Positions 3,425-31,665 of a DNA stretch of 40,691 nt are shown one piece after another; position 1 is the first letter of the stretch; every line of letters starts with the position of its first letter. Source of the DNA: an uncultured Bacilli bacterium (GTDB taxonomy: Bacteria > Bacillota_I > Bacilli_A > RFN20 > CAG-631). The notes under the pieces were generated by a model that was not told the origin of the DNA, searched no databases, and was given only the letters and a program-made list of their open reading frames with translations. Location: NCBI GenBank assembly GCA_947626825.1, contig CANQTM010000003.1, forward strand, positions 1 to 40,691. Direction: 5' to 3'. The translations under genes and the position numbers were made by a program.

Positions 3425-4969
3425 TTATAATTTTGTTGGAACAAAGAAATAAATTAAGAAAAGTGCAAAAACAACTAAACAAACAATTGAAATATTAAAT
3501 TTAGGTTTTTCTACATTATTTTTGTTAATTGCATATCTAATTAAATCAACAACATAACAAACTAAATTAATAACAACATAAGAAATAATACCAATACCAA
3601 TGCCTTTAGTAATTGAATAAGTTAAAACCATCATAATAATTGTTAAGAAAGCAGGAACAGCATTTTTAATGGAAGAAAAATCAATATTCTTAACATTTTT
3701 CATCATTAATACACCAACATAAATTAATGCTCCAGCTGCTGCAGAACTAGGAATAAAAGCAAATAAAGGTAATAAAAATAACGATAAGAAGAATAAAATT
3801 GCTGTAACTAAAGATGTTAAACCTGTTTTACCACCAGCAGCAATACCTGTTCCTGATTCAACAAATGTTGTAACTGTTGATGTTCCAAATAATGAACCAG
3901 TAACTGTGGCAACAGAATCTGAAATCATAATTTTATTATAATTTAATGGTTTACCATTGGCATCAACTAGATTAGCATTTGTTGCACAACCAACAACAGT
4001 ACCCATAGTATCAAACATATCAATCATACAAAATGTAATAATCAACATTAATGAAGTGAAAAATGAACCTTCAGGCATTTTGAAACCATCTTTAAATATT
4101 GAGAAAAATAAACCATTTTCTTTTGAAAAATATGTTGAGAAACTTTCCCAAAACTTCCATGTAGCTCCAGGAGTATGACCTGCTAAAATATCTATATTAG
4201 TAACTTTTAAAGGAAGAGCAAAAATAGTTGCAATTAAAATACCATAAATTACCGCTCCTTTAACTTTATAATGAGATAAAATGGCAATTGATGCTAAACT
4301 TATTACTGCAACTGATGCATAAACATAATCATATAAATGACCTTCTGGTGCAGTTAAGTGCCCAGTAAATAATTTAGTAAAATCAGCAAATTCAACTAAA
4401 GTATATTGGTTAGTAACAATCATCTTAGCATTTTGCATACCAATAAATGCAATAAACATACCAATTCCTACTGGAATAGCTTTTCTTATACATTCAGGCA
4501 TCCCATCAAATATTTTTTCACGCAATGTAATCCATTTACCTGTTGTCTTATCTTTTTTTATAGGTAGAATAGATAAAACTAAAAACAAAACACCAGAAAT
4601 CAAAACTAATAATAAAGCATTTGATAATGAATAAGAATAATTATATGCAAATGCTCCTACTCCACCACCAATAACGCCACCTAAAGTAGAATTCAAGCCC
4701 ATACCTGGAGCTTGTGCTAAAGGCATTTTTGCATAAAGTGACATCAATAAAGTTCCAATTATTGCACCAAATGCTGTTGCAATAAATACAGATGCCCATC
4801 TTGCATCACCAGTTCCACCATATAAAATTTGGTTTGGATTAACTGTCAAAATGTAAGCCATTGCTAAAAATGTTGCAATTCCAGCAATGATTTCCACTTT
4901 AAAGTTAGAACCTTTGGCGGTAATACCCCAAAACTGATCAATTCTTTGCTTAAAACTTTTTTTGTTCAT
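3425..4969 (-). CDS. pbuG: guanine/hypoxanthine permease, NCS2 AzgA-like family
   Basis: Polytopic membrane transporter that imports guanine and hypoxanthine with protons. The 514 residues and about 12-14 hydrophobic segments match the AzgA/PbuG branch of NCS2. Characteristic segments are AQAPGMGLNSTLGG, near the first helices, and DMFDTMGTVVGCATNANLVD, in the substrate-binding half. The start is the ATG at 4969 with a GGGAGG SD (4980-4975). The longer frame reaching 5065 runs backwards through the riboswitch and terminator and is not coding. A guanine riboswitch in the leader independently supports purine specificity. The uracil permease gene lies directly upstream on the same strand, and a strong terminator follows the gene. 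Confidence 0.93.
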   Translation of the reverse strand: MNKKSFKQRIDQFWGITAKGSNFKVEIIAGIATFLAMAYILTVNPNQILYGGTGDARWASVFIATAFGAIIGTLLMSLYAKMPLAQAPGMGLNSTLGGVIGGGVGAFAYNYSYSLSNALLLVLISGVLFLVLSILPIKKDKTTGKWITLREKIFDGMPECIRKAIPVGIGMFIAFIGMQNAKMIVTNQYTLVEFADFTKLFTGHLTAPEGHLYDYVYASVAVISLASIAILSHYKVKGAVIYGILIATIFALPLKVTNIDILAGHTPGATWKFWESFSTYFSKENGLFFSIFKDGFKMPEGSFFTSLMLIITFCMIDMFDTMGTVVGCATNANLVDANGKPLNYNKIMISDSVATVTGSLFGTSTVTTFVESGTGIAAGGKTGLTSLVTAILFFLSLFLLPLFAFIPSSAAAGALIYVGVLMMKNVKNIDFSSIKNAVPAFLTIIMMVLTYSITKGIGIGIISYVVINLVCYVVDLIRYAINKNNVEKPKFNISIVCLVVFALFLIYFFVPTKL

Positions 4970-4994
4970 ACGAACCTCCCTTTTCTTATTATCT

Positions 4995-5029
4995 AAAAAA
5001 ATGATTCCAATCATGGCGACGGAATCATT
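4995..5029 (-). terminator. riboswitch-controlled terminator (expression platform)
   Basis: Minus-strand stem AATGATTCC / GGAATCATT (5029-5021 and 5008-5000) followed by T's at 5000-4995. The stretch TTCCGTC, which spans the top of this stem, is complementary to GACGGAA just 3' of the aptamer. That gives the competing antiterminator. Confidence 0.87.
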
Positions 5030-5060
5030 TCTAGAAAACAAAAAAAGAAATTGTCGTTCC

Positions 5061-5123
5061 GTCATAGTCCTAAATTTACGGTTTAGGGTAGAGACTGCTT
5101 ACCATATTAAAGCGATATATGAC
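5061..5123 (-). ncRNA. guanine riboswitch (purine aptamer)
   Basis: A 63-nt purine aptamer on the minus strand. P1 is GTCAT / ATGAC. P2 is GCTT / AAGC with the loop core AATATGG. The J2/3 core is TCTCTACC. P3 is CTAAA / TTTAG with loop CCGTAAA. J3/1 reads GGACTATG, with C at the specificity position, so the ligand should be guanine or hypoxanthine rather than adenine. The U at the position that is changed in 2'-deoxyguanosine variants is retained. Ligand binding would lock P1, which contains ATGAC, block the GACGGAA/TTCCGTC antiterminator and let the terminator form. This is an off switch for purine import. Confidence 0.94.
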
Positions 5124-5148
5124 TAAGAATCTTTTTCAAGACACTTTT

Positions 5149-11619: not shown

Positions 11620-13332
11620 ATGTTTAAAAGATTTATTAAATATTATAAACCACACAAAGTTTTATTTTTCTTTGATATGATGGCATCTTTATTTATATCA
11701 ATCATTGGAATGTCTTATCCTATTTTGACACGACTTGCTTTTAATACATATGTACCAAATAATGATATAAAAATGATAATTATTTTAGCTATCATTTTAC
11801 TAATTTTATACATTATAAGAATGTTATTAACATTTTTTGTCCAATATCAAGGCCATGTTATGGGTGTTAAAATGCAAGCCAAAATGCGTAGTGACATGTT
11901 CGAGCATTTACAAGATTTACCATATTCATATTATGATGAAAATGAAACAGGGAAAATAATGTCAAGAATGACAAACGATTTGCAAAATGTCTCTGAATTA
12001 GCACATCATGGACCAGAAAATTTCTTTATATGTGGTTTTATGATTATAGGATCATTTACATATCTTTTTATAGTAAATTGGATTTTAGCTTTAATCATAT
12101 TAATTTGTATTCCAATTCTAGTGGGATTTTCATTGTTTTTTAGAAAAAGAATGAATAAAGCATTTACGATAAATCGTCAAAACATGGCCTCTATTAATGC
12201 ATCATTAGAATCAAGCATTTCAGGAATTAGAGTAACAAAAGCATTTACTAATAAAGAGAAAGAAATGGAAAAATTTGAAGAAAGTAATATTGCATATGTT
12301 AAATCTCGTTCAAGTGCCTATAAGGCTATGGGAATGTTTCATTCCTCTACTAATTTTATTTTAGATTTATTTAATATAATCTGCATTATTTCTGGTGGAA
12401 TTTTAGCAATAAATGGTTTAATTGATTTACCCGATTATTTAGCATTTGCTGTTTCTATAAGTTTATTTACTTCACCATTAACAACATTAATTAATTTTGT
12501 AGAACAATTTCAAGATGGAGTTACAGGATTTAAAAGATTTATAGAAATAATGGATGAAAAAGTGGAAACTGAAAAAGAAAATGCCATTGATGATGCAACA
12601 ATTAATGGAAATATTATTTTTGAAAATGTGTCATTTTCTTATGAAAAATCAAATCAAATATTAAATAATGTATCATTTAAAATTAGCAAAGGTGAAAAAA
12701 TTGCATTAGTTGGTGAATCTGGTGGTGGAAAAACAACAATTTGTCACTTAATACCTGCATTTTATAAAGCAACAAAAGGTAACATTTATATAGATAATTA
12801 TAATATTAATGATTTAAGTTTTAAATGTTTAAGAAAAGCTATAGGCATTGTTCAACAAGATGTTTTCTTATTTACTGGAACAATAAAAGAAAATATTTTG
12901 TATGGGTGTTTAAACGCTTCAGAAGAAGGAGTCATTAATGCAACGAAAAAAGCCAAAATATATGATTTTATTATGAGTTTACCAGAACAATTTAACACTC
13001 AAATTGGTGAAAGAGGTGTTAAATTATCAGGTGGTCAAAAGCAAAGGATTGCCATAGCTAGGGTATTTTTAAAAAATCCACCTATACTAATTTTAGATGA
13101 AGCAACTAGTGCTTTAGACAATACTACAGAAATTTTAATTCAGCAAGCTCTTGATGAATTATGTCTTGGTCGTACAACAATTGTTGTTGCCCATCGTTTA
13201 TCAACAATTGCTAATGCAACTAAAATAATGGTAATAGAAAATGGGCAAATTGTTGAAGAAGGAACTCATCAAGAATTATTATCAAAAAATGGCATTTATA
13301 AATCGTTATATAGTCTACAATTTCGTAATTAG
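11620..13332 (+). CDS. ABC exporter half-transporter (membrane plus ATPase)
   Basis: A single polypeptide with a six-helix type I exporter domain (about 1-320) and an ATPase domain. Walker A GESGGGKTT begins near 365, and the Q-loop region follows. The signature LSGGQ is near 469-473 and Walker B ILILDEATSALD near 490. The His switch is in VAHRLSTI near 524. The family includes homodimeric MsbA/Sav1866-type lipid and drug exporters, so a homodimer is likely. The third glycine of Walker A replaces the commoner serine, which is tolerated. The start has an AGGAGAAATT SD. It is divergent from the MATE exporter, and the paired arrangement suggests a shared detoxification or envelope role. The substrate cannot be determined. 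Confidence 0.93.
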   Translation: MFKRFIKYYKPHKVLFFFDMMASLFISIIGMSYPILTRLAFNTYVPNNDIKMIIILAIILLILYIIRMLLTFFVQYQGHVMGVKMQAKMRSDMFEHLQDLPYSYYDENETGKIMSRMTNDLQNVSELAHHGPENFFICGFMIIGSFTYLFIVNWILALIILICIPILVGFSLFFRKRMNKAFTINRQNMASINASLESSISGIRVTKAFTNKEKEMEKFEESNIAYVKSRSSAYKAMGMFHSSTNFILDLFNIICIISGGILAINGLIDLPDYLAFAVSISLFTSPLTTLINFVEQFQDGVTGFKRFIEIMDEKVETEKENAIDDATINGNIIFENVSFSYEKSNQILNNVSFKISKGEKIALVGESGGGKTTICHLIPAFYKATKGNIYIDNYNINDLSFKCLRKAIGIVQQDVFLFTGTIKENILYGCLNASEEGVINATKKAKIYDFIMSLPEQFNTQIGERGVKLSGGQKQRIAIARVFLKNPPILILDEATSALDNTTEILIQQALDELCLGRTTIVVAHRLSTIANATKIMVIENGQIVEEGTHQELLSKNGIYKSLYSLQFRN

Positions 13333-13360
13333 ATATTATTAAGAATATTGTAATATTTAA

Positions 13361-13401
13361 ATTATTTTATTTTATTATTTATCAAAATAATAGTCATTTT
13401 T
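13361..13401 (+). terminator. possible terminator after the ABC exporter
   Basis: Stem ATTATTTT / AAAATAAT (13361-13368 and 13384-13391) and a short T run a few bases later. It is all A/T, hence weak. The rest of 13333-13469 shows no gene. Confidence 0.3.
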
Positions 13402-13469
13402 CTTTATAAAACACATAAACTTCGGCCTATTTAAAAATAATTGATAATGATTTTAGCTAAGAATTTTAC

Positions 13470-13498
13470 TTGTAGTTTTTTTTAAAAATTTATATAAT
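13470..13498 (+). promoter_or_regulatory. promoter of the pepP-ybeY-cdd-era-recO run
   Basis: TTGTAG (13470-13475), a 17-base spacer, TATAAT (13493-13498). It is the only good promoter upstream of the seven-gene run. Confidence 0.7.
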
Positions 13499-13505
13499 TA
13501 ATTTG

Positions 13506-13527
13506 TAAAACTAATTAATTAGTTTTA
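13506..13527 (+). repeat. 22-bp perfect palindrome at the predicted transcript start
   Basis: Two halves of 11 bases, TAAAACTAATT and its reverse complement, without a spacer. It begins about 8 bases after the -10 box and ends about 17 bases before the ATG. It is either an operator or a 5' hairpin in the mRNA. Confidence 0.6.
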
Positions 13528-13543
13528 AAAGCAGGTTAAAATA

Positions 13544-15277
13544 ATGGAAAATGATAAAATTATATTGTTACAAAATTATTTAAAAAAGACACAAATTGAT
13601 GCCTTCATTTTCTTTTTGTGTGATGATCATGGTAGTGAATATATTAATGATTCATTTAAAATAATTCCTTATTTAACTAATTTTACTGGTAGTAATGCAA
13701 CATTACTTGTTTTACAAAATGAGATTTTGCTTTGGACAGATGGTCGTTATTTTTTACAAGCAAAAAAACAACTAGCAAATAATATAATACTAATGAAAAT
13801 TGGTATTGATCAAAATATTGAAGAATATATCAAAGATAACATTAACTCTTTATTTTTTGATTTTAAAACTGCTAAGACAAATATCATTTTGCATTTCAAA
13901 AAATTAAAACCAAAATTAATTTTAAAAGATGCTTCTTTATTTATTAAAACTTTTTGGTCAAAAAATATTGTTCCAAACAAAAAAATTTTTTTGTTGCCAA
14001 ATAATATTTATCTACAAAATGCTCATGAAAAATGCCATAAAACATTAAATCATATAAAAAACAATGGCAATTATGCCATCTTAGTTTCTGCTTTAGATGA
14101 TATAGCTTATCTTTTAAATGCTAGAGGACATGATATCAAATACAATCCTGTTTTTATGGCTTTTCTATTTTTAACAAAAGTTGACAATATTGAACATTAT
14201 ATTTTATATATTAAAAAAAATAAATTAACTGATGATATTAAAAAATCTTTGCAAGATTTAAATATTATTATTAAACCTTATTTTCAAATTTATAGAGATG
14301 TTGCTAAATTTAAAGATATTATATATTTTGATAGTGATAAAACAAATTTTAAATTATATTCATTAATGACAAAGAAAAAAAGTGTTATTTTATATCCAAC
14401 ATTAACAAAATGTATAAAAAATAATCTTGATATTAAAGAAACAAAGAAAACACATTTATATGATGCAATTGCTATGTGTAAATTTATTTATTATATTAAG
14501 CACAATTTAAATAAAAAACAATTAACCGAATTATCGGTTGCCAAAAAATTAGAACATTTAAGAAAAAAACAAGGGGCATTTGAATTATCATTTGCCACAA
14601 TTGTCGGCTATAAAGAAAATGGTGCCATTGTACATTATAGTGCAACCAAAGAAACTAATTTAAAAATAAATAATGAAAGTTTTTTATTAGTTGATAGTGG
14701 CGGACAATATTTTTATGGCACAACTGATATTACAAGAACTTTGGCCTTAGGTAAAATAACAAAAGAAATGAAATTTTATTTTACTTTAGCATTAAAAGCT
14801 CATATTGATTTAGCCATGGCAACTTTTGATAATAAAACAACAGATGCAAGTTTAGATTTAATTGCAAGAAAACCATTATGGGAACATAATCTAGATTATA
14901 ATCATGGAACAGGACATGGCATTGGACATATGTTAAATGTACATGAAGGTCCACAAAGTATTCGTTATAATAAACAAAAACCAACTATTATGAAAAAAGG
15001 TATGATTACTAGTGATGAACCTGGATTATATTTTGAAAATCTTTATGGTATTCGTCATGAAAATGAACTATTATGTGTTAAAATTAATAAAAATCAATTA
15101 GGTTTTGAACCATTAACATATGTACCTTTTGATATTAGTGCTATTGATAAAACAATTTTAAATGAAAATGAAATAAATTATTTAAATAATTATCATCAAA
15201 TGGTCTATAAAAAAGTTAGTAAATATTTAACAAAAAAAGAAAGAAAATATTTAAAAGATATAACAAAGGAAATATAA
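13544..15277 (+). CDS. pepP: Xaa-Pro aminopeptidase (M24B), long form
   Basis: Cytoplasmic metallopeptidase that removes N-terminal residues preceding proline. The 577-residue length fits the long three-domain form: two creatinase-like N-terminal domains (about 1-300) and a C-terminal pita-bread domain. Metal ligands are visible. Aspartates are in LVDSGG (about 383) and TTDITRT (about 394). Histidine is in HGTGHGIGH (454-462), and glutamates are in TSDEPG (about 491) and RHENE (about 506). The SD is weak (AGG), after the palindromic leader. ybeY starts one base after the stop region, so translation may be coupled. In many Firmicutes phoH sits at this position instead. Confidence 0.9.
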   Translation: MENDKIILLQNYLKKTQIDAFIFFLCDDHGSEYINDSFKIIPYLTNFTGSNATLLVLQNEILLWTDGRYFLQAKKQLANNIILMKIGIDQNIEEYIKDNINSLFFDFKTAKTNIILHFKKLKPKLILKDASLFIKTFWSKNIVPNKKIFLLPNNIYLQNAHEKCHKTLNHIKNNGNYAILVSALDDIAYLLNARGHDIKYNPVFMAFLFLTKVDNIEHYILYIKKNKLTDDIKKSLQDLNIIIKPYFQIYRDVAKFKDIIYFDSDKTNFKLYSLMTKKKSVILYPTLTKCIKNNLDIKETKKTHLYDAIAMCKFIYYIKHNLNKKQLTELSVAKKLEHLRKKQGAFELSFATIVGYKENGAIVHYSATKETNLKINNESFLLVDSGGQYFYGTTDITRTLALGKITKEMKFYFTLALKAHIDLAMATFDNKTTDASLDLIARKPLWEHNLDYNHGTGHGIGHMLNVHEGPQSIRYNKQKPTIMKKGMITSDEPGLYFENLYGIRHENELLCVKINKNQLGFEPLTYVPFDISAIDKTILNENEINYLNNYHQMVYKKVSKYLTKKERKYLKDITKEI

Positions 15278-15278
15278 T

Positions 15279-15728
15279 ATGATATACATTAATTATAGAA
15301 ATAAAACAAAATATGATGTAAATTCTTATATAGATATTTTTAAACAAATTACTCGTTATACTTTAAAACAATTTAATTTAAAAGGTAATTTTGAACTATC
15401 AGTTACTTTAGTATCAAAAAAAATGATTAGAGACATTAATTTACAATATCGTCATATTGATAAAGTAACTGATGTAATTAGTTTTGAAAATGATAATGAT
15501 TTAATAAAAGTTGATAATTTAATAACATTAGGAGATTTATTTATATGTGTTAATAAGGCCAAAATGCAAGCGAAAGAATACGGCCATTCTATGTATCGTG
15601 AACTTTGTTTTCTTTTTACACATGGTTTATTACACTTATTAAAAATGGATCATATGAATCCTCAAGATGAAGAAAAAATGATAGCAATGCAAAACAACAT
15701 TATGAATCATTTCAAAATAATTAGATAG
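15279..15728 (+). CDS. ybeY: endoribonuclease YbeY (rRNA maturation)
   Basis: Zinc-dependent single-strand RNase involved in 16S rRNA 3' processing and 70S quality control. The signature H-x3-H-x5-H appears as His115, His119 and His125 in THGLLHLLKMDH. The length of 149 residues is typical. The SD AAAGGA lies in the end of pepP. cdd follows after 12 bases. The order ybeY-cdd-era-recO is the conserved Firmicute cluster. The diacylglycerol kinase gene often found between ybeY and cdd is absent here. Confidence 0.95.
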   Translation: MIYINYRNKTKYDVNSYIDIFKQITRYTLKQFNLKGNFELSVTLVSKKMIRDINLQYRHIDKVTDVISFENDNDLIKVDNLITLGDLFICVNKAKMQAKEYGHSMYRELCFLFTHGLLHLLKMDHMNPQDEEKMIAMQNNIMNHFKIIR

Positions 15729-17753: not shown

Positions 17754-18905
17754 GTGAAAAAAAATATTTTATTAATTACAGCTTTATTATTAGGACTTGC
17801 AGCATGTAATGAAAATTCCAATAGTAATGTTTCTAATTCATCTACTAATGAAAATTCAAGCAATTTTGTGACTCCAAGTGTTACTGATAATTTTGATGAA
17901 TCAAAATATGAAGCTGCTGAAATTGTAAAAATTAAAGAAATTTATTTAGTTCCTGGAGAAACTTATCATCTTGATAAAATGATCAATGATAACCAAGAAT
18001 ATACTAATTTAGTTTATGAAACTAGTTCTTCTGATGTTAGTGTTAGTAATGAAGGTATTATTACCGCTTCACCAAATGTAGAAACTGATGATAAAGTAAC
18101 AAGCACTATTTATGTTCATACTGAAACAAAATTGCAAAAAGTTTCTGTTAATGTTGTGAACTATCAAGAATATGGAAGTTACTTTACTAGCGTTGATATT
18201 GGACGTTTATATGGCAAAAATGTAATATTCTTTGGTGATTCAATCACACATAACTGGGCAAAATATCCAGGTGGTGATAGACCAGCTACACCTGAAGCAC
18301 AAGCACAAGCTGACAAAGTAACTTCACTAGGTTATCCTGGACATTATATTGTAAGATTAAATGACATTTGTCATTTTGCAAGTGTCACTAATGCTGCCTG
18401 GTCTGGTGGTACAATGGCTTACCTTCCAAAAAGTTTAGAAAGATTTACTTATAAATCTTTTCCAGGTGCCGTTAACGATAATACAGAAGCCATCAAAAAA
18501 GCCGATGTTATGTTTGTTTTTTATGGAACAAATGATTTAACTGATCAAGTACCTCTTGGCACTGTTGCTGATAATTGTAATTATGGAAGTGATGAATCAT
18601 CAACATTTTGTGGTGGCATGAATTATGGAATTGAAAAAATTAGAGAATTAAATCCAAATGCTGTTTTGATTTTTATCAATATCTTAACAAGAATATATGG
18701 AATGTCAAATTTGGCAATCTCTCTTAGTGAATATAATGATGCTATACAAGAAGTAGCTTTAGCACAATTAGTAAGAGTTATTGATGTGGAACATTTATTT
18801 ACTCCAGCTGAATTTGTACCACCAATTTCTACTGATGGCTTACATCCTCAATCTGAAGGTTATGCAGTTTTAACTGATTATATTTTAAATGATGGGAAAA
18901 AATAG
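17754..18905 (+). CDS. secreted lipoprotein SGNH/GDSL hydrolase with Ig-like domain
   Basis: Surface-anchored esterase-type protein, 383 residues, GTG start with a strong AAGGAGG SD. Residues 1-17 are a lipoprotein signal ending GLAAC, with Cys18 lipidated. A Ser/Asn-rich linker (about 19-50) and a BIG2-like Ig domain (about 55-135) precede the hydrolase. The catalytic blocks are GDS (nucleophile near 163), GTND (near 259-262) and TDGLH (Asp and His near 361-364). Such enzymes deacylate glycans, lipids or peptidoglycan O-acetyl groups. The substrate is not readable. A cytoplasmic paralogue starts 3 bases after its stop. Confidence 0.86.
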   Translation: MKKNILLITALLLGLAACNENSNSNVSNSSTNENSSNFVTPSVTDNFDESKYEAAEIVKIKEIYLVPGETYHLDKMINDNQEYTNLVYETSSSDVSVSNEGIITASPNVETDDKVTSTIYVHTETKLQKVSVNVVNYQEYGSYFTSVDIGRLYGKNVIFFGDSITHNWAKYPGGDRPATPEAQAQADKVTSLGYPGHYIVRLNDICHFASVTNAAWSGGTMAYLPKSLERFTYKSFPGAVNDNTEAIKKADVMFVFYGTNDLTDQVPLGTVADNCNYGSDESSTFCGGMNYGIEKIRELNPNAVLIFINILTRIYGMSNLAISLSEYNDAIQEVALAQLVRVIDVEHLFTPAEFVPPISTDGLHPQSEGYAVLTDYILNDGKK

Positions 18906-18908
18906 TTT

Positions 18909-19643
18909 ATGGCAAAATTAAAAGATTTATTAAAAAATAAAAAAATCGTTTTTTATGGTGATTCTATAACACATAATTGGGAAAAATATACACATGATTT
19001 GGTATTAACTCATCCTGAAGATCCAGATTACAAATATGGTCTTGGCTATGGTCATGTAAAGATGTTAAATGATGTTTGTCATTTTAAATCTATTGATAAT
19101 TTTGCTGTTTCTGGCGGTTGTTATGCAAATTGCATGGATATAAATCCTAATCGTGCAACTTTTAGACATTTTCCATATCAAGTGACTCATTCAAAAGAAG
19201 CACTTGAAAAAGCTGATGTAATTTTTGTAATGTTTGGAACAAATGATTTTTCTGAACAAGTACCTTTTGGTGATTATAAAGATATTGCAAAAGATGAAAA
19301 TCAAACAGATATGACTTTTTATCAAGGTATGAACTTTGGCTTTAGAAAAATTAAAGAGGCCAATCCTAACGCATTAATTTTAGTTGTAAATTGTCTTAAT
19401 CGTATGGTTGACATTGAGGCTAATCGTACTTTTAATTATTCTTTAAATGAATATAATTTAGCTATTAGACATATTTGCAATATTTATAAATTGCATCTTA
19501 TTGATGTAAGTAATTTATTTGTTATTCCAGATAATTTCGTTGGTGGCAAAGGAGTAACATATACCGATGATGGGCTTCATCCAAATAATGAAGGCTACAA
19601 ATGTTTTACTGAATTTTTATTAAATTATGAAATAGATTATTAA
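18909..19643 (+). CDS. SGNH/GDSL hydrolase, cytoplasmic paralogue
   Basis: A 244-residue hydrolase without signal peptide or Ig domain, closely similar to the catalytic half of the upstream lipoprotein. Gly17-Asp18-Ser19 in FYGDSITHNW is the nucleophile block, Gly110-Thr-Asn-Asp113 the second, and DDGLHP near 219-224 holds the Asp/His pair. Both proteins share GDSITHNW, ND[IV]CHF and GTND, so tandem duplication is likely. The start has only a poor SD and begins 3 bases after the previous stop, so translational coupling is likely. Neighbours suggest that one hydrolase acts outside the cell and the other on imported product, but this is inference. Confidence 0.83.
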   Translation: MAKLKDLLKNKKIVFYGDSITHNWEKYTHDLVLTHPEDPDYKYGLGYGHVKMLNDVCHFKSIDNFAVSGGCYANCMDINPNRATFRHFPYQVTHSKEALEKADVIFVMFGTNDFSEQVPFGDYKDIAKDENQTDMTFYQGMNFGFRKIKEANPNALILVVNCLNRMVDIEANRTFNYSLNEYNLAIRHICNIYKLHLIDVSNLFVIPDNFVGGKGVTYTDDGLHPNNEGYKCFTEFLLNYEIDY

Positions 19644-20219: not shown

Positions 20220-20930
20220 ATGTCTATTTTAGTTACAATTAATTTTATAAAAAAACAAAATGTTTATGAAGAATTGATTGATTATTTATATTCATTATCT
20301 GAACAAATAGGTTTTGTAACTTTTCATAAATATCATCTTAATGATGAAACAATTGATAATTTATTAGCATCTTATCGAAAAGAACATCTTGATGAGGTTT
20401 CTACTTATCGTAAATTATATTATGAAAACGATAAAGAATTTATTAAACAAGTTAAAAAAATTAAAATAAAAAACGATGAAATGTTTGAAGAATATTTACA
20501 ATTTATATTACAACATAATTTTGAACTTTGTAAAAAATTAGAAAAAAATTGCAATATTTTAAATGAAAATAAAACAACATTAGATTATAAAGATGTTTTT
20601 TTAGAATTAGCACCATATTTATTTTCAGTTACACCAGATTATACAATAGATTGTGAAATATATGATTTGGTTAAATATCAAAAAAATGAATTGTTATTAA
20701 ATGCCATTAAACAAATGGAAAGTTTTTCAGCCTTTCCATTTATAAATGATAAATATAATATTTATTTTGAATCACCAGCATTTTTTAGAAATAATCATGA
20801 ATTTGCTAAAATAAGTACAGAACATGATTATATGGAAATTATCTTTGAAGAAAACGAATATCAAATATTTAAAAAAATGAAAATAAAACATAAAACAGAG
20901 GAATTTATTTGGAAAGATGAAAAGCAATAA
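20220..20930 (+). CDS. conserved-looking hypothetical protein
   Basis: Unrecognised soluble protein of 236 residues. It is Lys/Glu/Tyr-rich with a long charged helical middle (about 55-125, likely coiled coil) and a more hydrophobic C-terminal third. No signal peptide, membrane segment or known active-site motif is visible. The SD is GAGGT. Its end overlaps the pseudouridine synthase start by 14 bases, so the two are probably co-translated, which hints at an RNA- or ribosome-related role without proving it. Confidence 0.6.
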   Translation: MSILVTINFIKKQNVYEELIDYLYSLSEQIGFVTFHKYHLNDETIDNLLASYRKEHLDEVSTYRKLYYENDKEFIKQVKKIKIKNDEMFEEYLQFILQHNFELCKKLEKNCNILNENKTTLDYKDVFLELAPYLFSVTPDYTIDCEIYDLVKYQKNELLLNAIKQMESFSAFPFINDKYNIYFESPAFFRNNHEFAKISTEHDYMEIIFEENEYQIFKKMKIKHKTEEFIWKDEKQ

Positions 20931-21843: not shown

Positions 21844-21877
21844 ATACTTTTTTCATATACTTTAACAGGTGTTAAAG

Positions 21878-22507
21878 GTGAAAAAACAAGACAAAGTACA
21901 AAATATTTTATTTTTTTTCTTAAATAGTATTGTAATTACTTTATTATTTCTTTTTTTTATCTATAATCAAAAATTTTATTTATTACAAAGCGTATTTTTT
22001 TTGTTAACTCTTAATATTCCTATTTTTTTTCAAATATTTTTACGCTTTAAATTTACTTTGTTAACAATAATAATTTATGAACTATTTTTGATTGCTCATT
22101 TTATTTTTGGTGAAATATTATCTTTTTATACCCTAATTAGATATTATGATGTTTTTTTACATTTTGCCACTTCATTTTGTATTTGCTTATTTAGTTTTAG
22201 TATTATCCATACATATTTGAAAATTTTTCTTTTTAATTTGCAAATTTTTATTGCTTTTTTAATTAGTATAACTAGTGAATTTATTTGGGAAATAATCGAA
22301 TTTTTTATTGATGAAATTTTTTCTACCAATATGCAAAGATATATAAATAATATTGGAATATTATTAAATGGTCACAATGCTTTACAAGATACTATAAAAG
22401 ACATGTTTACAGCATTAATTGCTGGATTATTTTTTGTTTTTGCAATTAAATATAAAAAATTGCAAAGAATTAAAGTATTAGCAAATAAAAATGTTCTTTT
22501 AAAATAA
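21878..22507 (+). CDS. YjdF/DUF2238-like membrane protein
   Basis: Small polytopic protein, 209 residues with about 6 hydrophobic segments. The pattern YDVFLHF near the middle, then SEFIWEIIEFFIDE and NALQDTIKDM towards the end, resembles the YjdF (DUF2238) family of unknown function, with its conserved Asp, Glu and Trp residues in membrane helices. I choose the GTG at 21878 because AGGTG (21867-21871) is at proper spacing. A GTG at 21869 is in frame but has no SD. It lies 34 bases after the pseudouridine synthase and ends at a strong hairpin. Confidence 0.62.
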   Translation: MKKQDKVQNILFFFLNSIVITLLFLFFIYNQKFYLLQSVFFLLTLNIPIFFQIFLRFKFTLLTIIIYELFLIAHFIFGEILSFYTLIRYYDVFLHFATSFCICLFSFSIIHTYLKIFLFNLQIFIAFLISITSEFIWEIIEFFIDEIFSTNMQRYINNIGILLNGHNALQDTIKDMFTALIAGLFFVFAIKYKKLQRIKVLANKNVLLK

Positions 22508-22858: not shown

Positions 22859-25800
22859 CTAAATACTACGACTCGCTAGTTCTATATATCTTTCAATATG
22901 TTCTTTAGAATAAACTTTATTAATATCTATTAGTTGACCAGTTGCATTTTCTAATTCATAACCTTGTACACTTGAACCATCACCAATGCCTGGCATTTCA
23001 GATAACATTTCACTAATAGCTATTCTAATTACATTAGACTCAAGCAAATTAGCCAATGTGCCATCATTATAGCATTCTATTAATTTTTGCAAATTAAGAT
23101 CAACATTTGCAATGTTTCCAGATGATATTGTACCTAAACTACTTATTAAAGAATTTAATTCAGTATCATTAAGAATTAAAATAGTTTTTCCATCTAGATC
23201 TGTTGTAGATTCTGCATCAGTTTCAAGTGCATATGCATGGATTTGCATACTTTCAGATACACCACTAGATTCAAATGATAAATTTGCAGTAATAGTAGCA
23301 CGCATGATTTTACTTTTAGAAATATCTTTATTATTAGAATCAACTTTAATTTGATTTGCATCAATAGAACCAACATTACCAATTCCTTCCATAGATGCTA
23401 ATGCTTTAAATAAAGAATCCAATTCCTTACCATCAATGACATTATAATCTGTAATTTTATCATCTTTAACATCACTAGGAACTCGAATTATTTCTATATC
23501 TAAAATAACTTTTGAAATTGTTGTTCTTAAAATTAATGAATCAACTACTGGACTTTGTTTGTCATCTTTTCCAGCAAGTTTATCTATTGATAAATCGTTA
23601 AAATTGATATTTGATATTTCTGTATCTGGGAATATTGTTGATAATCCTAAAATCAAATGATTCATTTCTTCAACATCTAACACTTGATTTGGTGTTAATA
23701 TAGTTTGATCATATGCTTTATTTGGAATAATTACAGCATCATCTTCAATATCTTTTAATTGTTGTGTAACTGTAGCATTTAAAATATATGATTTAGATAT
23801 TTTTTCTTTTGAATTAGATAAATTTGTAGTATTGATTGTTTGAATCTTATCACTTATTTTTGATATTGATGTGTTCTCATCATTACCAAGTAAAATAACA
23901 AGACCAGAAATTAAATGATCCATTTCGCCATTATCTTCACCGGCTGTTAACATTGTTTCTTTTTCTATTTTAGATGAATCATAGGCTTCTTTAGGAATGA
24001 TAATTTCTTTTATTTCCTTTAATTGTTTTGTGATTGTAGCATTTAAAATATATGATCTACCTAAAGAAACTTTCGCAGCTTCAAGTTTAGAAAGAGAAAT
24101 GTTATCAACATTAATATTTGTTATTGTTGCATCATTAGGCAATAATTCATTTAAACCAACAATTAAATATTCTAATTGTTCATTATCTAAAATTTCTTTT
24201 TCATCTCTACTATATTTAAGTGCATCTGATGGAACAACTATAACATCAGATTGATCCTTTAGTTGTTTTGTAACTGTAGCATTTAAAATATATGATTTAG
24301 ATATTCTTTCTTTTGAATTAGATAAATTTTCAATACTGATTGTTTGAATTTTATCGCTAATATTTGATATTGATGTATTTCCATCATCACCAAGTAAAAT
24401 AACAAGACCAGAAATTAAATTGTCCATTTCACCACTATCTTCACCTGTTGTTAACATTAATTCGTGTTTAGATGAATCATAAGCTTCATAAGGAATAACA
24501 ATCTCTTTGATATCTGTTAATTGATGTGTAATTGTAGCATTTAAAATATATGATCTACCTAAAGAAACTTTTGCAGCATCAAGTTTAGAAAGAGTAATGC
24601 TATCAACATTAATGTTTGTTATTGTTGCATCATTAGGTAATATTTCATTTAAACCTTCTATTAAATATTTTAATTGTTCTTTATTTATAAATTCTTTTTC
24701 ATCAGCGCCATATTCAATTACATCTGATGGAACTACAACATCAGGTTGATCTACCAATTTAGAAGTAATAACAGCATTGATAATATATGAATTTGTAATA
24801 TTATCTTCCTTTTCTGATAAAGCAGAAATACTAACATTTTCATTTATTTCAATATTTGTAATTGGAAGATTTGGATTAACAATTATTTCAATAGCATCTA
24901 ATAAATTATCTAATTCAGAAATTGATAAAATTTGTGTAGATTTATAGTTATTATCATAAGCATTATAAGGTATAGTAATAACATCATTTTGTTCTTGTTT
25001 AATCATTTCTTTTGTTATGATAGCTCGAATCACTACTGAATCTAATAATTTATTTTTTGAACTATTTAAATGGGCAAAAGTAATATTATTAATTGAACTA
25101 TCAATATTACTTAAACTAGCATTTTCATCTAATAAAGCACCCAAAGCAACAATTAACTTATGTGCTTCATCTTTCTTCATAAATGTTTCTTTACTTTCTT
25201 TTACTTCTGTAGGAACATCATAACCATTATTTTCAAGTTGTGTTGTTAAAATATGACGAATTATCATAGAATTGCTTAAAGCATTATTATTATTTTCAGC
25301 ATCTTCTAACATAGAAACTTTGAAATTATCAACATTCATTAAATCAGAATAACTTGCTTGATTGCTGGCATCTTTTAAGGCTTTTAAAGCAGTAACTAAG
25401 TTATTTATTTCTACGCTATTAACAACTTCTACATCGTTATATTTTGAATCTAAAGCGGCATCAGGAACATAAATACCTGAATCTTTTTGATCATTAATAT
25501 ATTTTGTTAATGTAGCACGAATAATTATTGAATCTAATGCTTTATTATTTTCAGTTATTTTATCTAATATATCATTGATTAAAGTATCTTGATCAACATT
25601 ACTATTTGTAAAAGCATCTGTTCCAATGATAGTTATTGATCTTAATAAATTAACAACTTCTTTACCATTTATTAATCTATCTTCATCAGTATCATAAATT
25701 CCATTAGGAACAACAATACTTAATCCATCACTGCTTTCATTTGAAAATTCGACAACATATTTTGATAATGTTGCATGCAAAATACTTGAATATGATGAAT

Positions 25801-28753
25801 CAGTATATGGTTCAGCACTTGCTGCTCCACCAAAAATATTAACAGCTACTTCTTTTAAATCATTTGTTTTTGGATCTTTCAAATTATCAACAATAGACAT
25901 TGGATCATCCATAACATTTTTAATATCAATATTTAAATCAAATACAGCCTTTAATAAATTTGAAAATGCATCTGATTTAATTATATCTACTTGTTCTTCA
26001 ACAAGATTATCATTTTCATCAAGTATAAAACAAGTTGATAAATCAGAATCATCTGATAATGCTTTCTTTGGAATAGCAATATATTCACCAGCATAATTTT
26101 TTATCATATAAGACAAAGTAGCCTTTAAAATTCCTGAGTCAAATAATTTTTTTAAATTACTCTCATCTTGTTTTTCAGGATCATAAAGTTTTTTAGAAGT
26201 AAATAAATTAAATATGTTATCTTCTGTAAAATCAAATTTAGCAATGTAATCATCAGATTCTTTTTCTGCATCAGTTAGATTTATAGATGGTTCATCGGCA
26301 ATAGTTCCATCATCATTAACTTTGAAAAATGTTAATAATGAATTATAATCAATAATATTTTCATCAGTTAAAATTTCAAAAACTGTTTTCATTGAATCTC
26401 TTTTAATCATATGTTCAATAGTTTGGCCATTAACAGTATCTTTGCTTGCTTCTGTTTCATTTTTAGGAACGATAATAAAATTTTGATAACTCTTTAAAAT
26501 TTTATTTAATGAATAATATAAAACTTCACAATTCATTAATCTATCTGTTGGAATAGCACGAATTATTGCAGGTATTGATTTTCCAGGATATGAAAGATTT
26601 TCAAGATAACTAGCACAGTTTGTAATAGTTTCTAACATGATATAAAGTTCACCATTTTCAAAATCTTCATTTTCTTCATTTGAATTTGGACCATGGTACC
26701 ATTTTTCATTAAATTTATGAGTTGTTTCATCATATTCCATTAATGAATCAGGGACAGTAACATAATTTGCAAAATCACCACTTATATCACTTAAAACGCC
26801 TTTTGATTGAGTGGTATCAACAAATAATTTAATAATAGCATATGATAATAAATCACTTTTAACAACTGTATTAGGAGAAAATTCTCTTAATAAACTAAAA
26901 TCATATTTTTCAATTGATTCAAATGGATGAATGACATTTTGGTCATCTGTAAGTAAATCATTAATTATTTTTAGTGCAGCATTAATTTCTGTTTTCCATT
27001 GTGCTGTTGTAACTACTTCTGGATTAATTAAAGAAGCATATTCTTGTGGAATTAATGTTTCTTTTACAATAGTTAACACATCAGGTAAAATTTCAATAGC
27101 AAAATTTGTTTCTAAAATAGTATTAATAATTGAAGCATATTTATTAGTATCAACAGATGTTAAAGCAGCAACATAATTAGTTATTTGACCATTTTCATCT
27201 TTATATTGTTCTAAAGCAGTATCTTTAAAGATTTCTTTAAATTTAGCATATAAATCTTTAATTGAAACTATAGAATCTCCAATTGTATTGTCATTATTAG
27301 CATCTTTAACTGTCATGTTAGCTAATTTATTTTCAACTTCAGCAATTAGATCATCATAACCTTCTTGATCTTGAACTAAAGACTTAATTCCATAACTAAC
27401 GCCAACATGTCCTAAGAAATTAATTAATTGCAAATTACCCAATTTTTCAATAATTGTACTTACAATTTCTTCATCTAAATTGAAAAAGTCTAAAGTAGCT
27501 AAATCGCCATTTTGGCCAACCTGATCTTTTAAACTATATACATATCCTACAAGTTCTGATATAGTAACAAGTTCTTTTTTCCAATCAATATCGTATTCTT
27601 CTTTAGTTACATTTGAAGGCATATAATCTTTAACAGCATCCAAACTAATACTAATACCAATTAAAGCAGTACCTAAATTATTAATTAAATCTTCATCTGA
27701 TAATATTTTTAATATGTTTTGCAAATGAGAAATTTTTTCATTATCTAATGCTGTCCAAACAACATTTTCAAAATCAAAACCATCTGTTAAATAATAAGCT
27801 TCTTCTGCAACTTCAATAAGTAATCCAAGTTCTTTTCTTAAAGCAAAAGAATAATCTTCTGATTTACCTGAAAGAATTGAATCGATAAATTTATCATCAA
27901 TTGAAGTATTGCCTATTTTCATGTTTGTCATTGTGATTAAAGTTGAATTTTGATAATCACCAATCATATCAAGAGCCATACTAACAATTTCATTATTGTC
28001 TGTATATTCAAGAATAAAATCATAAATTGAAGAATATTTAGTTCCACCTTCTGTTGATGCAGTAACATTGTCATTTTCAACTTTTGGTAAAACTTTTATC
28101 AAACCATTGACCATACATAAAATTAAGAAACTACATAAAAATCCTCTTAAAAAGCCACTTGCTAAGCCAAGAGGTGTAAATAATTTGTTTTGTTTGATGG
28201 CTTTTTGTTGATATCTTATTTCTTTATCTATCTTAACACTAGCCATGTGATGCTTTTCAAAATATTTTGCTTGTTTCTTTTCAAGTTTTTTAAGATGTCT
28301 TTTAGAAACTCGACAATATTTTTTAAAGAAACAATTGTATACAATGATTTTGGCAAAGAAATATATAATTGCCCAAATTATTAACCAAACTATTTTTAAA
28401 ACGCATTGAGCAATCGCAACAATAGTTGCAGAAACATTTGGATCACTTAAAGCTGAAGCATCAAAACCAGCAGCATTTGCAATAGTTGCTTTAAGATAAT
28501 CCATCAAACATAAAATTGATGCACCATCATTTTCGACTGAAGGTAAAATATCTTTTAAAGCATCATATAATGCATTGTTATACCAAATTAGTCGACCTTG
28601 GATTAATGGAGCTGTTATCCAAAATATAATCCAGAAAATTAATGTTGCAAAAAAATTGAACATATTTTTACGAAAGCCTTCCCATAAACCAATTAACAAA
28701 GAGGCAATCATTATAACGCCAATAACGATTAACATAATTATTTGAATACTCAT
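22859..28753 (-). CDS. giant CvpA-domain protein with extracellular repeats
   Basis: 1964 residues, the largest gene here. Residues 1-222 look like a CvpA-type (colicin V production) membrane domain with helices at about 3-23, 31-51, 109-140 and 194-221. The loop after helix 1 (GLWEGFRKN) is typical of CvpA, and a very basic loop lies at 143-190. The positive-inside rule puts both basic loops in the cytoplasm and the C-terminal 1740 residues outside. That tail carries about 15 degenerate units. Each has a helix of type S-x-I-L-x-A-T-I-T-x-x-L, then a strand ending V-I-P-x-x-A-Y-D, then E-x-x-x-L-I-x-G-L. They lie roughly every 80-130 residues from about 640 to 1930. The last units are the most regular. 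No C-terminal anchor or LPXTG motif is seen. The SD is GAGAGGAG. No function is assigned; it is likely a surface structural or binding protein. Confidence 0.8.
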   Translation of the reverse strand: MSIQIIMLIVIGVIMIASLLIGLWEGFRKNMFNFFATLIFWIIFWITAPLIQGRLIWYNNALYDALKDILPSVENDGASILCLMDYLKATIANAAGFDASALSDPNVSATIVAIAQCVLKIVWLIIWAIIYFFAKIIVYNCFFKKYCRVSKRHLKKLEKKQAKYFEKHHMASVKIDKEIRYQQKAIKQNKLFTPLGLASGFLRGFLCSFLILCMVNGLIKVLPKVENDNVTASTEGGTKYSSIYDFILEYTDNNEIVSMALDMIGDYQNSTLITMTNMKIGNTSIDDKFIDSILSGKSEDYSFALRKELGLLIEVAEEAYYLTDGFDFENVVWTALDNEKISHLQNILKILSDEDLINNLGTALIGISISLDAVKDYMPSNVTKEEYDIDWKKELVTISELVGYVYSLKDQVGQNGDLATLDFFNLDEEIVSTIIEKLGNLQLINFLGHVGVSYGIKSLVQDQEGYDDLIAEVENKLANMTVKDANNDNTIGDSIVSIKDLYAKFKEIFKDTALEQYKDENGQITNYVAALTSVDTNKYASIINTILETNFAIEILPDVLTIVKETLIPQEYASLINPEVVTTAQWKTEINAALKIINDLLTDDQNVIHPFESIEKYDFSLLREFSPNTVVKSDLLSYAIIKLFVDTTQSKGVLSDISGDFANYVTVPDSLMEYDETTHKFNEKWYHGPNSNEENEDFENGELYIMLETITNCASYLENLSYPGKSIPAIIRAIPTDRLMNCEVLYYSLNKILKSYQNFIIVPKNETEASKDTVNGQTIEHMIKRDSMKTVFEILTDENIIDYNSLLTFFKVNDDGTIADEPSINLTDAEKESDDYIAKFDFTEDNIFNLFTSKKLYDPEKQDESNLKKLFDSGILKATLSYMIKNYAGEYIAIPKKALSDDSDLSTCFILDENDNLVEEQVDIIKSDAFSNLLKAVFDLNIDIKNVMDDPMSIVDNLKDPKTNDLKEVAVNIFGGAASAEPYTDSSYSSILHATLSKYVVEFSNESSDGLSIVVPNGIYDTDEDRLINGKEVVNLLRSITIIGTDAFTNSNVDQDTLINDILDKITENNKALDSIIIRATLTKYINDQKDSGIYVPDAALDSKYNDVEVVNSVEINNLVTALKALKDASNQASYSDLMNVDNFKVSMLEDAENNNNALSNSMIIRHILTTQLENNGYDVPTEVKESKETFMKKDEAHKLIVALGALLDENASLSNIDSSINNITFAHLNSSKNKLLDSVVIRAIITKEMIKQEQNDVITIPYNAYDNNYKSTQILSISELDNLLDAIEIIVNPNLPITNIEINENVSISALSEKEDNITNSYIINAVITSKLVDQPDVVVPSDVIEYGADEKEFINKEQLKYLIEGLNEILPNDATITNINVDSITLSKLDAAKVSLGRSYILNATITHQLTDIKEIVIPYEAYDSSKHELMLTTGEDSGEMDNLISGLVILLGDDGNTSISNISDKIQTISIENLSNSKERISKSYILNATVTKQLKDQSDVIVVPSDALKYSRDEKEILDNEQLEYLIVGLNELLPNDATITNINVDNISLSKLEAAKVSLGRSYILNATITKQLKEIKEIIIPKEAYDSSKIEKETMLTAGEDNGEMDHLISGLVILLGNDENTSISKISDKIQTINTTNLSNSKEKISKSYILNATVTQQLKDIEDDAVIIPNKAYDQTILTPNQVLDVEEMNHLILGLSTIFPDTEISNINFNDLSIDKLAGKDDKQSPVVDSLILRTTISKVILDIEIIRVPSDVKDDKITDYNVIDGKELDSLFKALASMEGIGNVGSIDANQIKVDSNNKDISKSKIMRATITANLSFESSGVSESMQIHAYALETDAESTTDLDGKTILILNDTELNSLISSLGTISSGNIANVDLNLQKLIECYNDGTLANLLESNVIRIAISEMLSEMPGIGDGSSVQGYELENATGQLIDINKVYSKEHIERYIELASRSI
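23733..24733 (-). repeat. two tandem copies of a ~498-bp block inside the giant gene
   Basis: Copy one covers 24733-24236 (from residue 1341) and copy two 24235-about 23733 (from residue 1507). Both begin VPSD and contain, in order, LPNDATITNINVD, AAKVSLGRSYILNATIT, EAYDSS and ISGLVILLG. Each holds two repeat units. By eye they are roughly three-quarters identical as protein, and long DNA runs are also shared. Confidence 0.85.
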
Positions 28754-30155: not shown

Positions 30156-30383
30156 ATGGAGAAGGCATTAAAATTTTTCTTAAAAGCATTTAAGGCTATC
30201 ATTTTTAGCCCTTTTTATATTATCTATTTTGCATTATACCTTGTTATTAATATAGTAAATTATTTAATTGGAGAAGTACGAGTTATTATTTCTGGCTTTC
30301 GTTTTGGCAGTGATAATGAAAATAAATATCGCCGCAAAATTAAAAGAATTGTACAATCAGTACAAAATGGTGGTGATAGATAA
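30156..30383 (+). CDS. small membrane protein with basic tail
   Basis: 75 residues: an amphipathic or hydrophobic N-terminal half (about 8-45, one or two helices) and a strongly basic tail (KYRRKIKRIV near 57-66). A purine-rich GGAAGGGGG SD precedes it. It begins 4 bases after the previous gene, and its TAA overlaps the next ATG (TAATG). Family unknown. The tight coupling suggests stoichiometric production with its neighbours. Confidence 0.65.
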   Translation: MEKALKFFLKAFKAIIFSPFYIIYFALYLVINIVNYLIGEVRVIISGFRFGSDNENKYRRKIKRIVQSVQNGGDR

Positions 30384-31153
30384 TGTTATTTTTACTTTTT
30401 AGACTTGATGAAAGAAGTCGTAAAGTTGTTTTAGTTTTATATGCTCTTTTTATACTTGTTTTATTAATCTTTGGTGGCATTTATGTAGTCATTGAAAAAT
30501 TCATGAAAAAACAAGCCTTGAAAATGGATACATATATGTATGATTTGATTAAGTTTAAACTTGTAAGAAACAAAAATCATTTTAAAAGCGCTGTTTTCTA
30601 TCATGAACAAAGAATCTTATTTAATACATCTAAGTGGTTTTTTAGAATTTTAATTCTTTTTACTGGTATTGCTTGTATTTTAACAGCTTTAGTATTTGAT
30701 AAAAACTTTTCAAGATTTTTTAGTGAATTCTTTAAATTAATTCCTAATTTTCATTGGACAACAATTAAAGAAACTAATGAATCATTATCTCATCTAGAAA
30801 ATTATCAACCAATAATTGGACCTGGATGGTTACCTGTTTCAGTTATTCCAAATGTTTCTTTAAATCCAAATTTAAATTTTGATGAACCAATTTTATATTG
30901 TTCAACAGTTTATTATATTGTTGCTATTGCTTGTTTTGTTGGATTAACAAGATCAACCATTGCTTTTATTGCTAGAGTTCATCGAGCTTTTAAAATGTCA
31001 AATGATGTTTTCCAAAAAGATTTAAGTACATTATCACCTGATGATCTTTCTGAATTTTCTAATATGATTAATTCACCATTACCTAATATAAATAATAATG
31101 CAGGAAATAACAATAATAATGATAATAGCAATCAAGATAATAAGGATAATTAA
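30383..31153 (+). CDS. membrane protein with Asn-rich C-terminus
   Basis: 256 residues, family unknown. Three hydrophobic helices lie near 17-38, 87-108 and 176-196. A basic loop lies between the first two. A segment of about 65 residues with Trp, Pro and Asn between helices 2 and 3 is probably extracellular. The last 30 residues are almost only Asn, Asp, Ser and Gln, a low-complexity tail of the disordered type. The start overlaps the previous stop by one base. It is the third gene of the leaderless operon. Confidence 0.65.
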   Translation: MLFLLFRLDERSRKVVLVLYALFILVLLIFGGIYVVIEKFMKKQALKMDTYMYDLIKFKLVRNKNHFKSAVFYHEQRILFNTSKWFFRILILFTGIACILTALVFDKNFSRFFSEFFKLIPNFHWTTIKETNESLSHLENYQPIIGPGWLPVSVIPNVSLNPNLNFDEPILYCSTVYYIVAIACFVGLTRSTIAFIARVHRAFKMSNDVFQKDLSTLSPDDLSEFSNMINSPLPNINNNAGNNNNNDNSNQDNKDN

Positions 31154-31158
31154 ATAAA

Positions 31159-31665
31159 ATGCTTAATCCTTTTTATATTATAATCATTTTAGTAATTTTA
31201 TTTACATTTTTTCATTTACTTTATAAATTTGTTTTATATCCATTTTTTATTAAAAAAAGAATAAAAAGCAATATAATTAAGGAAGCTGTAGCTAATAACA
31301 CTACAGCTATTATTATTAATCAACATATTGATAATTGTGATTTTCAAATAAAAATAAATGACAAAATATTTTTAATAAAAATAATTTATAATAAAAAAAA
31401 TTGTGATTTACAAATTAACAATTTTGAAACTTTTTTTATGTACCAAAAAACTTTTTCTAATGCATTAAAAGCAAAACAAATCTTTGGTTTAAAAACATTT
31501 ATGAAAAGTACAAAGCAAAATAGAATTTTAGTTCTTGCTAAAAAGGCTAAAACAATTAAAAAAGTTATTAATGAATGTGAAATGATCATGGTTGATGAAA
31601 ATACAAATGTTTATAATACACACATATTAAATCAAGATTATTCATATTTTTTCAAATCAAAATAA
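31159..31665 (+). CDS. single-pass membrane protein, possibly a degenerate NERD-like domain
   Basis: 168 residues: one N-terminal helix (about 4-30), basic residues, then a soluble alpha/beta domain. The run AIIINQHI, DFQIKINDKIFLIKI, then a helical stretch and RILVLAKKAKTIKKV recalls nuclease-related (NERD) domains, but the catalytic residues are not clearly present. I therefore list this only as a possibility. It starts 5 bases after the previous stop. It is the last gene of the four-gene run. Confidence 0.58.
   Translation: MLNPFYIIIILVILFTFFHLLYKFVLYPFFIKKRIKSNIIKEAVANNTTAIIINQHIDNCDFQIKINDKIFLIKIIYNKKNCDLQINNFETFFMYQKTFSNALKAKQIFGLKTFMKSTKQNRILVLAKKAKTIKKVINECEMIMVDENTNVYNTHILNQDYSYFFKSK

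Follow-up and report, generated by a model that had tools for sequence, protein, structure and literature searches.

Giant proteins joining a CvpA-like membrane domain to a long repeat-bearing tail occur across many poorly known Bacilli

An uncultured gut bacterium of the Bacilli encodes a giant protein in which a CvpA-like domain of four membrane helices continues into a tail of about 1,740 residues that carries two kinds of repeat, and proteins of this architecture form a large overlooked family across many poorly known Bacilli, often ones without a wall, rather than an oddity of one genome. We favour, by a modest margin, the explanation that they are self-anchored surface stalk or coat proteins; in that explanation topology and anchoring are inferred and the function is a guess. 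The window, by which we mean the whole stretch of DNA analysed here, comprises bases 1 to 40,691 of a 115-kb contig (source genome: 1.84 Mb in 87 contigs), and the gene and its parts are laid out in it as follows.

22859..28753, minus strand: giant ORF, intact, 1964 aa with an ATG start; putative CvpA-like anchor and repeat tail (extracytoplasmic by inference)
28079..28753, minus strand: CvpA-like membrane domain, residues 1-225 (hydropathy, Pfam Colicin_V matches of relatives, hhalign, AF2 helices, loop charges), with transmembrane (TM) segments at about residues 5-23, 32-51, 106-140 and 198-222 by hydropathy
26534..28078, minus strand: membrane-proximal conserved region of the tail, residues 226-740 (alignments across the families of the order)
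27533..27691, minus strand: type-A repeat, copy 1, residues 355-407 (HMM r2, i-E 1e-10, single-sequence search)
26936..27112, minus strand: type-A repeat, copy 2, residues 548-606 (HMM r2, i-E 4e-14)
23093..26533, minus strand: array of 13 type-B repeats, residues 741-1887 (iterated HMM, AF2, repeats in other families)
22862..23092, minus strand: C-terminal cap, residues 1888-1964 (weak partial repeat match at 1903-1938)

By hydropathy, the four TM segments are confined to residues 1-225; the remaining ~1740 residues, the C-terminus included, have no such segment. The tail is strongly acidic and nearly cysteine-free, and neither LPXTG nor any other known anchor was found in the C-terminal cap. 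Full-length homologues in the same genus and family measure 2268, 2224 and at least 1798 aa. The initial annotation, made from sequence alone, had described four hydrophobic helices in the first 222 residues of a giant protein with a tail of ~1740 residues; both the helices and the observation as a whole held.

The N-terminal domain is CvpA-like by homology without being a full member of Pfam family PF02674. The Pfam CvpA model (PF02674) gave no match to the window protein alone at E ≤ 1, and direct scans of this protein against Pfam and NCBIfam returned only sub-threshold noise. Among its relatives, the homologue in genome G003 showed two collinear matches to PF02674 (E 0.005 and 0.03), and hmmscan found the family in 2 of 25 members of the order (best E 3.3e-5); in the genome search the PF02674 matches of relatives fall short of the curated cut-off. 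We tie the N-terminus to CvpA because of a profile-profile match: hhalign of the N-termini of 26 giants against six ordinary CvpA proteins from the same order gave a probability of 97.1% (E 6.5e-11) over 53 columns spanning the TM1-TM2 hairpin, vs less than 1% for three unrelated membrane proteins used as controls. The giants share with CvpA the N-terminal four-TM domain, a TM1-TM2 turn rich in glycine and basic residues, and a positive TM3-TM4 loop running into a G-x-x-x-G start of TM4, and the family trait of four TMs with positive loops 1-2 and 3-4 was met both in hydropathy and in the loop charges of 42 sequences. They differ in that the ordinary members in these genomes are tailless proteins of about 180-280 aa. 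Since the window's genome also encodes a separate ordinary CvpA (G000:C26, 259 aa), the giant looks like a paralogue. A PDB sequence search with the N-terminal profile gave no match. The earlier reading of a CvpA-style membrane domain thus held through Pfam in relatives and hhalign, with the window protein itself missing the Pfam threshold, and the lack of CvpA similarity in residues 1-225 that would have refuted it was not encountered.

The type-B repeat is ~80 residues long. Copies were called with an iterated repeat HMM, which found 13 in residues 741-1887 of the window protein, every one with i-E ≤ 1e-9. Their consensus reads S-x-I-L-x-A-T-I-S, then V-P, then E-x-x-x-L-x-x-A-L, with the S, P and E at least 90% conserved across families. 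An HMM from the window's family detected 161 type-B copies in 17 relatives and none in either reversed or shuffled sequences, indicating that the repeats are not an effect of composition. The type-A repeat is present in most giants of the order and reaches about 25 copies in one of them (L038); a common origin of types A and B was considered and not shown (hhalign, only 6%). Residues 226-740 are kept across the families of the order, and the first ~950 residues of the giants retain conserved positions across it. Pfam scans of the tails of 41 giants and NCBIfam scans of 25 revealed no recurrent family and no peptidase family, and weak aldolase matches in a PDB sequence search (E > 0.2) were taken as chance.

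An AF2 model of six type-B repeats (pLDDT 86, pTM 0.82) is all-alpha, each unit being predicted to consist of two longer helices and short ones with brief bridges only, and a Foldseek search of the PDB with this model returned nothing significant (best E 0.4, probability 0.02). A model of residues 1-620, of moderate to low confidence (pLDDT 67), predicts an alpha-helical tail up to residue 620 and a single long helix for TM3; Foldseek with the N-terminal model gave noise only. Concerning the tail, the initial annotation had counted about 15 repeats, which held in total (13 type B and 2 type A). Its motif, quoted for the whole tail, held only in part, residues 226-740 being mostly without it, and the strand it had seen ending in V-I-P-x-x-A-Y-D was not borne out by the model, in which the unit is helical with short bridges at that place. 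Its remark that the kind of surface repeat was not recognised held, no known family or PDB fold having been matched; a known domain family throughout the tail, which would have counted against it, was not found in Pfam, NCBIfam or the PDB.

Matches of the window protein in a single-sequence search of 58 relatives were confined to its genus and family. With a six-sequence profile they appeared in 130 of the 279 genomes of the order, and with a 26-sequence profile in 174 of 395 genomes sampled from the class, 153 of these at E < 1e-9. The figure of about 150 carriers is approximate, a few of the 153 being ordinary-length CvpA frames (e.g., G057, G268). Giant ORFs span about 700-6,000 aa (largest 6,049 aa, G387), and their tails about 600 to 5,800 residues. 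Type-B repeats, searched with the model from the window's family only, were present in 15 of 17 giants of other families and undetectable in the other families of the window's own order, suggesting an old array that was lost or has diverged there. A class-wide repeat profile run on 34 genomes matched 14; the listed matches lay within CvpA-type giant frames, their short tandem paralogues (G372, G384) or a contig-end fragment, and none fell in a tested genome without a giant. An apparent stand-alone repeat ORF in G376 was dismissed, as it is cut off by the end of its contig and probably represents part of a giant. A phylum-wide search listed same-class matches only, the number of genomes of other classes that it included being unknown, and no phage or plasmid match was found. 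The named relatives are SUG151, an 'Erysipelotrichaceae bacterium', and MAGs of 'uncultured Bacilli' with the label Lapin, which probably come from rabbits. The literature searched held no description of such proteins. The initial interpretation was in all likelihood essentially right, and this breadth across families could not have been seen in a single sequence.

In family f28, a second, shorter CvpA-type protein of 955 to about 1350 aa is often encoded within about 10 kb of a long giant. At one such locus (L121:3650-12472 and 12582-15446) both proteins share nearly the same C-terminal sequence, and further pairs of this type occur in G378, G402, G438, G508, G520 and G597; the long and short proteins may act as a pair.

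Of 42 giants examined for loop charge, 39 have a positive TM1-TM2 turn and none a negative one. The loop between TM2 and TM3 is negative in 40 and that between TM3 and TM4 positive in 40, while in 41 the initial 100 residues of the tail carry negative charge. Net tail charge ranges from -56 to -843 across the giants, and cysteine makes up 0-0.9% of their tails. The loop charges, taken with the single long TM3 helix of the model, imply that both positive loops share one face of the membrane and that the tail leaves from the other, outer face. This placement is inferred from the 42 relatives and the TM3 model and by analogy with MarP, with no localisation data. Some relatives have a very long TM3-TM4 region (about 160 residues in L011), so an additional cytoplasmic role is possible.

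The precedent is the mycobacterial protein MarP (Rv3671c), which is of Colicin_V-trypsin architecture (an architecture described in PMC2605481) and carries its protease in the periplasm, behind four N-terminal TMs (PMC4992679). By inference the giants are alike in that a four-TM Colicin_V-type domain would anchor an extracytoplasmic C-terminal part, and their charge pattern agrees with such a part following the fourth TM, without experimental proof. MarP-type proteins differ from them in being about 400 aa long with a known, trypsin-like protease fold as the outer part. The inferred outer part of the giants instead consists of a helical repeat not described before, which extends over 600 to about 5,800 aa, and neither a C-terminal trypsin-like protease nor any enzyme domain was detected in it by Pfam or NCBIfam. 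LPXTG surface proteins of Gram-positive bacteria carry long repetitive extracellular tails of variable copy number. The giants resemble these sortase substrates in their long repetitive tail and variable copy number, their external location being inferred. They are unlike them in their polytopic N-terminal anchor (also inferred), in lacking LPXTG (the final 80 residues of all 42 giants are free of LP-x-T-G-like motifs), in mostly lacking a sortase, and in occurring also in lineages without peptidoglycan transpeptidases.

The penicillin-binding transpeptidase PF00905 was absent in 107 of 153 strong carriers vs 113 of 242 other genomes (odds ratio 2.7, ignoring relatedness), and a sortase was found in only one of ten tested genomes, namely the window's own. 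Since most carriers have no PF00905 and nine of the ten tested genomes no sortase, attachment to the wall is ruled out as the general anchor; by inference this role falls to the CvpA domain, the sole candidate that we saw. Families with a wall (f12, f14 and that of the window) have giants, as do wall-less ones, and many wall-less genomes have none. This matches the mix of walled and wall-less members described for the order RFN20, in which we place these families by inference, in a 2024 survey, which reported repeated loss of peptidoglycan in these orders and inferred that RFN20 and ML615J-28, lacking sortases, probably express fewer surface proteins (PMC10868615). Of the claims of the initial annotation on this point, the absence of a visible LPXTG held in all 42 giants, the placement of the tail outside by the positive-inside rule is supported by the loop charges and MarP, as an inference without experiment (topology data putting the tail in the cytoplasm, which would have refuted it, did not arise), and the suggestion that the CvpA domain may itself be the anchor is supported by the missing LPXTG and by the carriers without a peptidoglycan transpeptidase.

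A conserved partner gene was considered and rejected. In order families f3, f5 and f6 (L071-L090), genes for a CPBP protease, a TraX-like protein and a thioredoxin lie divergent from the giant, and genes for YigZ (UPF0029), an Mrp-type ATPase and a peptidase lie downstream. Apart from the peptidase, this order is not seen at the window locus, and no neighbour is conserved class-wide; we therefore read the conserved order in L071-L090 as shared chromosomal order. In both genomes of the genus, the gene at 21869-22507 and the pseudouridine-synthase gene beside it run convergently towards the giant. Four neighbouring proteins in the window (20220-20930, 21869-22507, 30383-31153 and 31159-31665) had no Pfam match.

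Elsewhere in the window, a purine riboswitch at 5045-5142 on the minus strand (63 bits, E 8e-9) overlaps the annotated start of a 546-aa ORF (3425-5065, minus strand), suggesting that the true start is further downstream, and two adjacent genes for GDSL-type lipases/acylhydrolases (17754-18905 and 18909-19643, plus strand) may be a tandem duplication. We also observed that a gene for what we take to be a SpoVD-like penicillin-binding protein is interrupted directly behind its KTG motif. In the window's genome (L133:409-1923, G000:C22; L135:598-4246, G000:C14), BREX-like genes come after the 5' half, and the 3' half is found on a different contig, preceded by two serine recombinases. In G003 (L134:1282-14387, G003:C2), the halves are separated by about 11 kb that includes two large serine recombinases. 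The arrangement looks like the insertion of a skin-type element into a sporulation gene; the SpoVD-like, BREX-like and serine recombinase names come from reading the sequences, without a family search.

In the explanation that we favour, the CvpA-type four-helix domain would be embedded in the cytoplasmic membrane, its N- and C-terminal ends both on the outer side, and the acidic, cysteine-poor tail would be exported as its continuation. The small all-helical repeats would stack into a long extracellular stalk or coat, the length of which lineages may tune through repeat gain and loss. With the membrane domain as anchor, neither sortase nor wall would be needed, which fits the occurrence of giants in Bacilli with and without a wall. 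The analysis demonstrates an intact ORF, homology to CvpA, the repeats, a confidently modelled helical unit, the distribution and no dependence on peptidoglycan genes; outside topology and anchoring rest on inference. That the protein serves in adhesion, as a spacer or as a protective coat is a guess. No localisation, expression or function data exist, and the function of CvpA itself is not firmly known. The conservation of the first ~950 residues is more than a plain variable adhesin needs, so a fixed partner is possible.

That conservation across the order also speaks for a different reading, which remains possible. In it the protein would belong to a CvpA complex for transport or stress resistance, with the CvpA domain doing the work, handling solutes or bile, and the tail forming the extracytoplasmic part of the complex, a scaffold that brings in envelope partners. 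In its favour, E. coli CvpA promotes deoxycholate resistance and partly resembles small-solute transporters (PMC6705877). Against it stand the separate ordinary CvpA in the window's genome, tail lengths that are odd for a fixed complex, and the want of a class-wide conserved neighbouring gene. We consider it unlikely that the giant is an envelope scaffold that partly substitutes for the wall, stabilising shape or division in cells with a thin peptidoglycan layer or none left. The more frequent absence of PF00905 in carriers and the repeated loss of peptidoglycan in these orders (PMC10868615) would suit such a role; however, the PF00905 association tracks taxonomy and is uncorrected for relatedness, walled families carry the giant, and many wall-less genomes do without it. 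Least likely of these explanations is a cytoplasmic tail, making the protein a giant intracellular scaffold attached to the membrane: there is no experimental topology, and low cysteine and acidic charge also suit the cytoplasm, but the charges of the loops in 42 relatives, the modelling of TM3 as one long helix and the precedent of MarP argue against it.

A CvpA-type anchor, as in MarP, and long repeat surface proteins as a kind were known already; new, so far as the libraries and papers searched show, are the fold of the repeat and the combination, size and breadth. The giants are very large for the small genomes (1-2 Mb) of these poorly known, mostly uncultured Bacilli, and their tails and repeats are in no family library searched, leaving the type-B repeat as a new fold to solve. 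A bolder reading, against which we lean, is that they are class-wide surface giants with a new repeat fold, in which a polytopic CvpA anchor replaces sortase and wall. If it is true, thin-walled and wall-less Bacilli could build a protein coat, and the inference that sortase-lacking lineages express fewer surface proteins would be partly overturned. As a putative wall- and sortase-independent route to the surface, the family makes that inference (PMC10868615) testable, and CvpA, the function of which is unsettled, would gain a clear structural context as an anchor.
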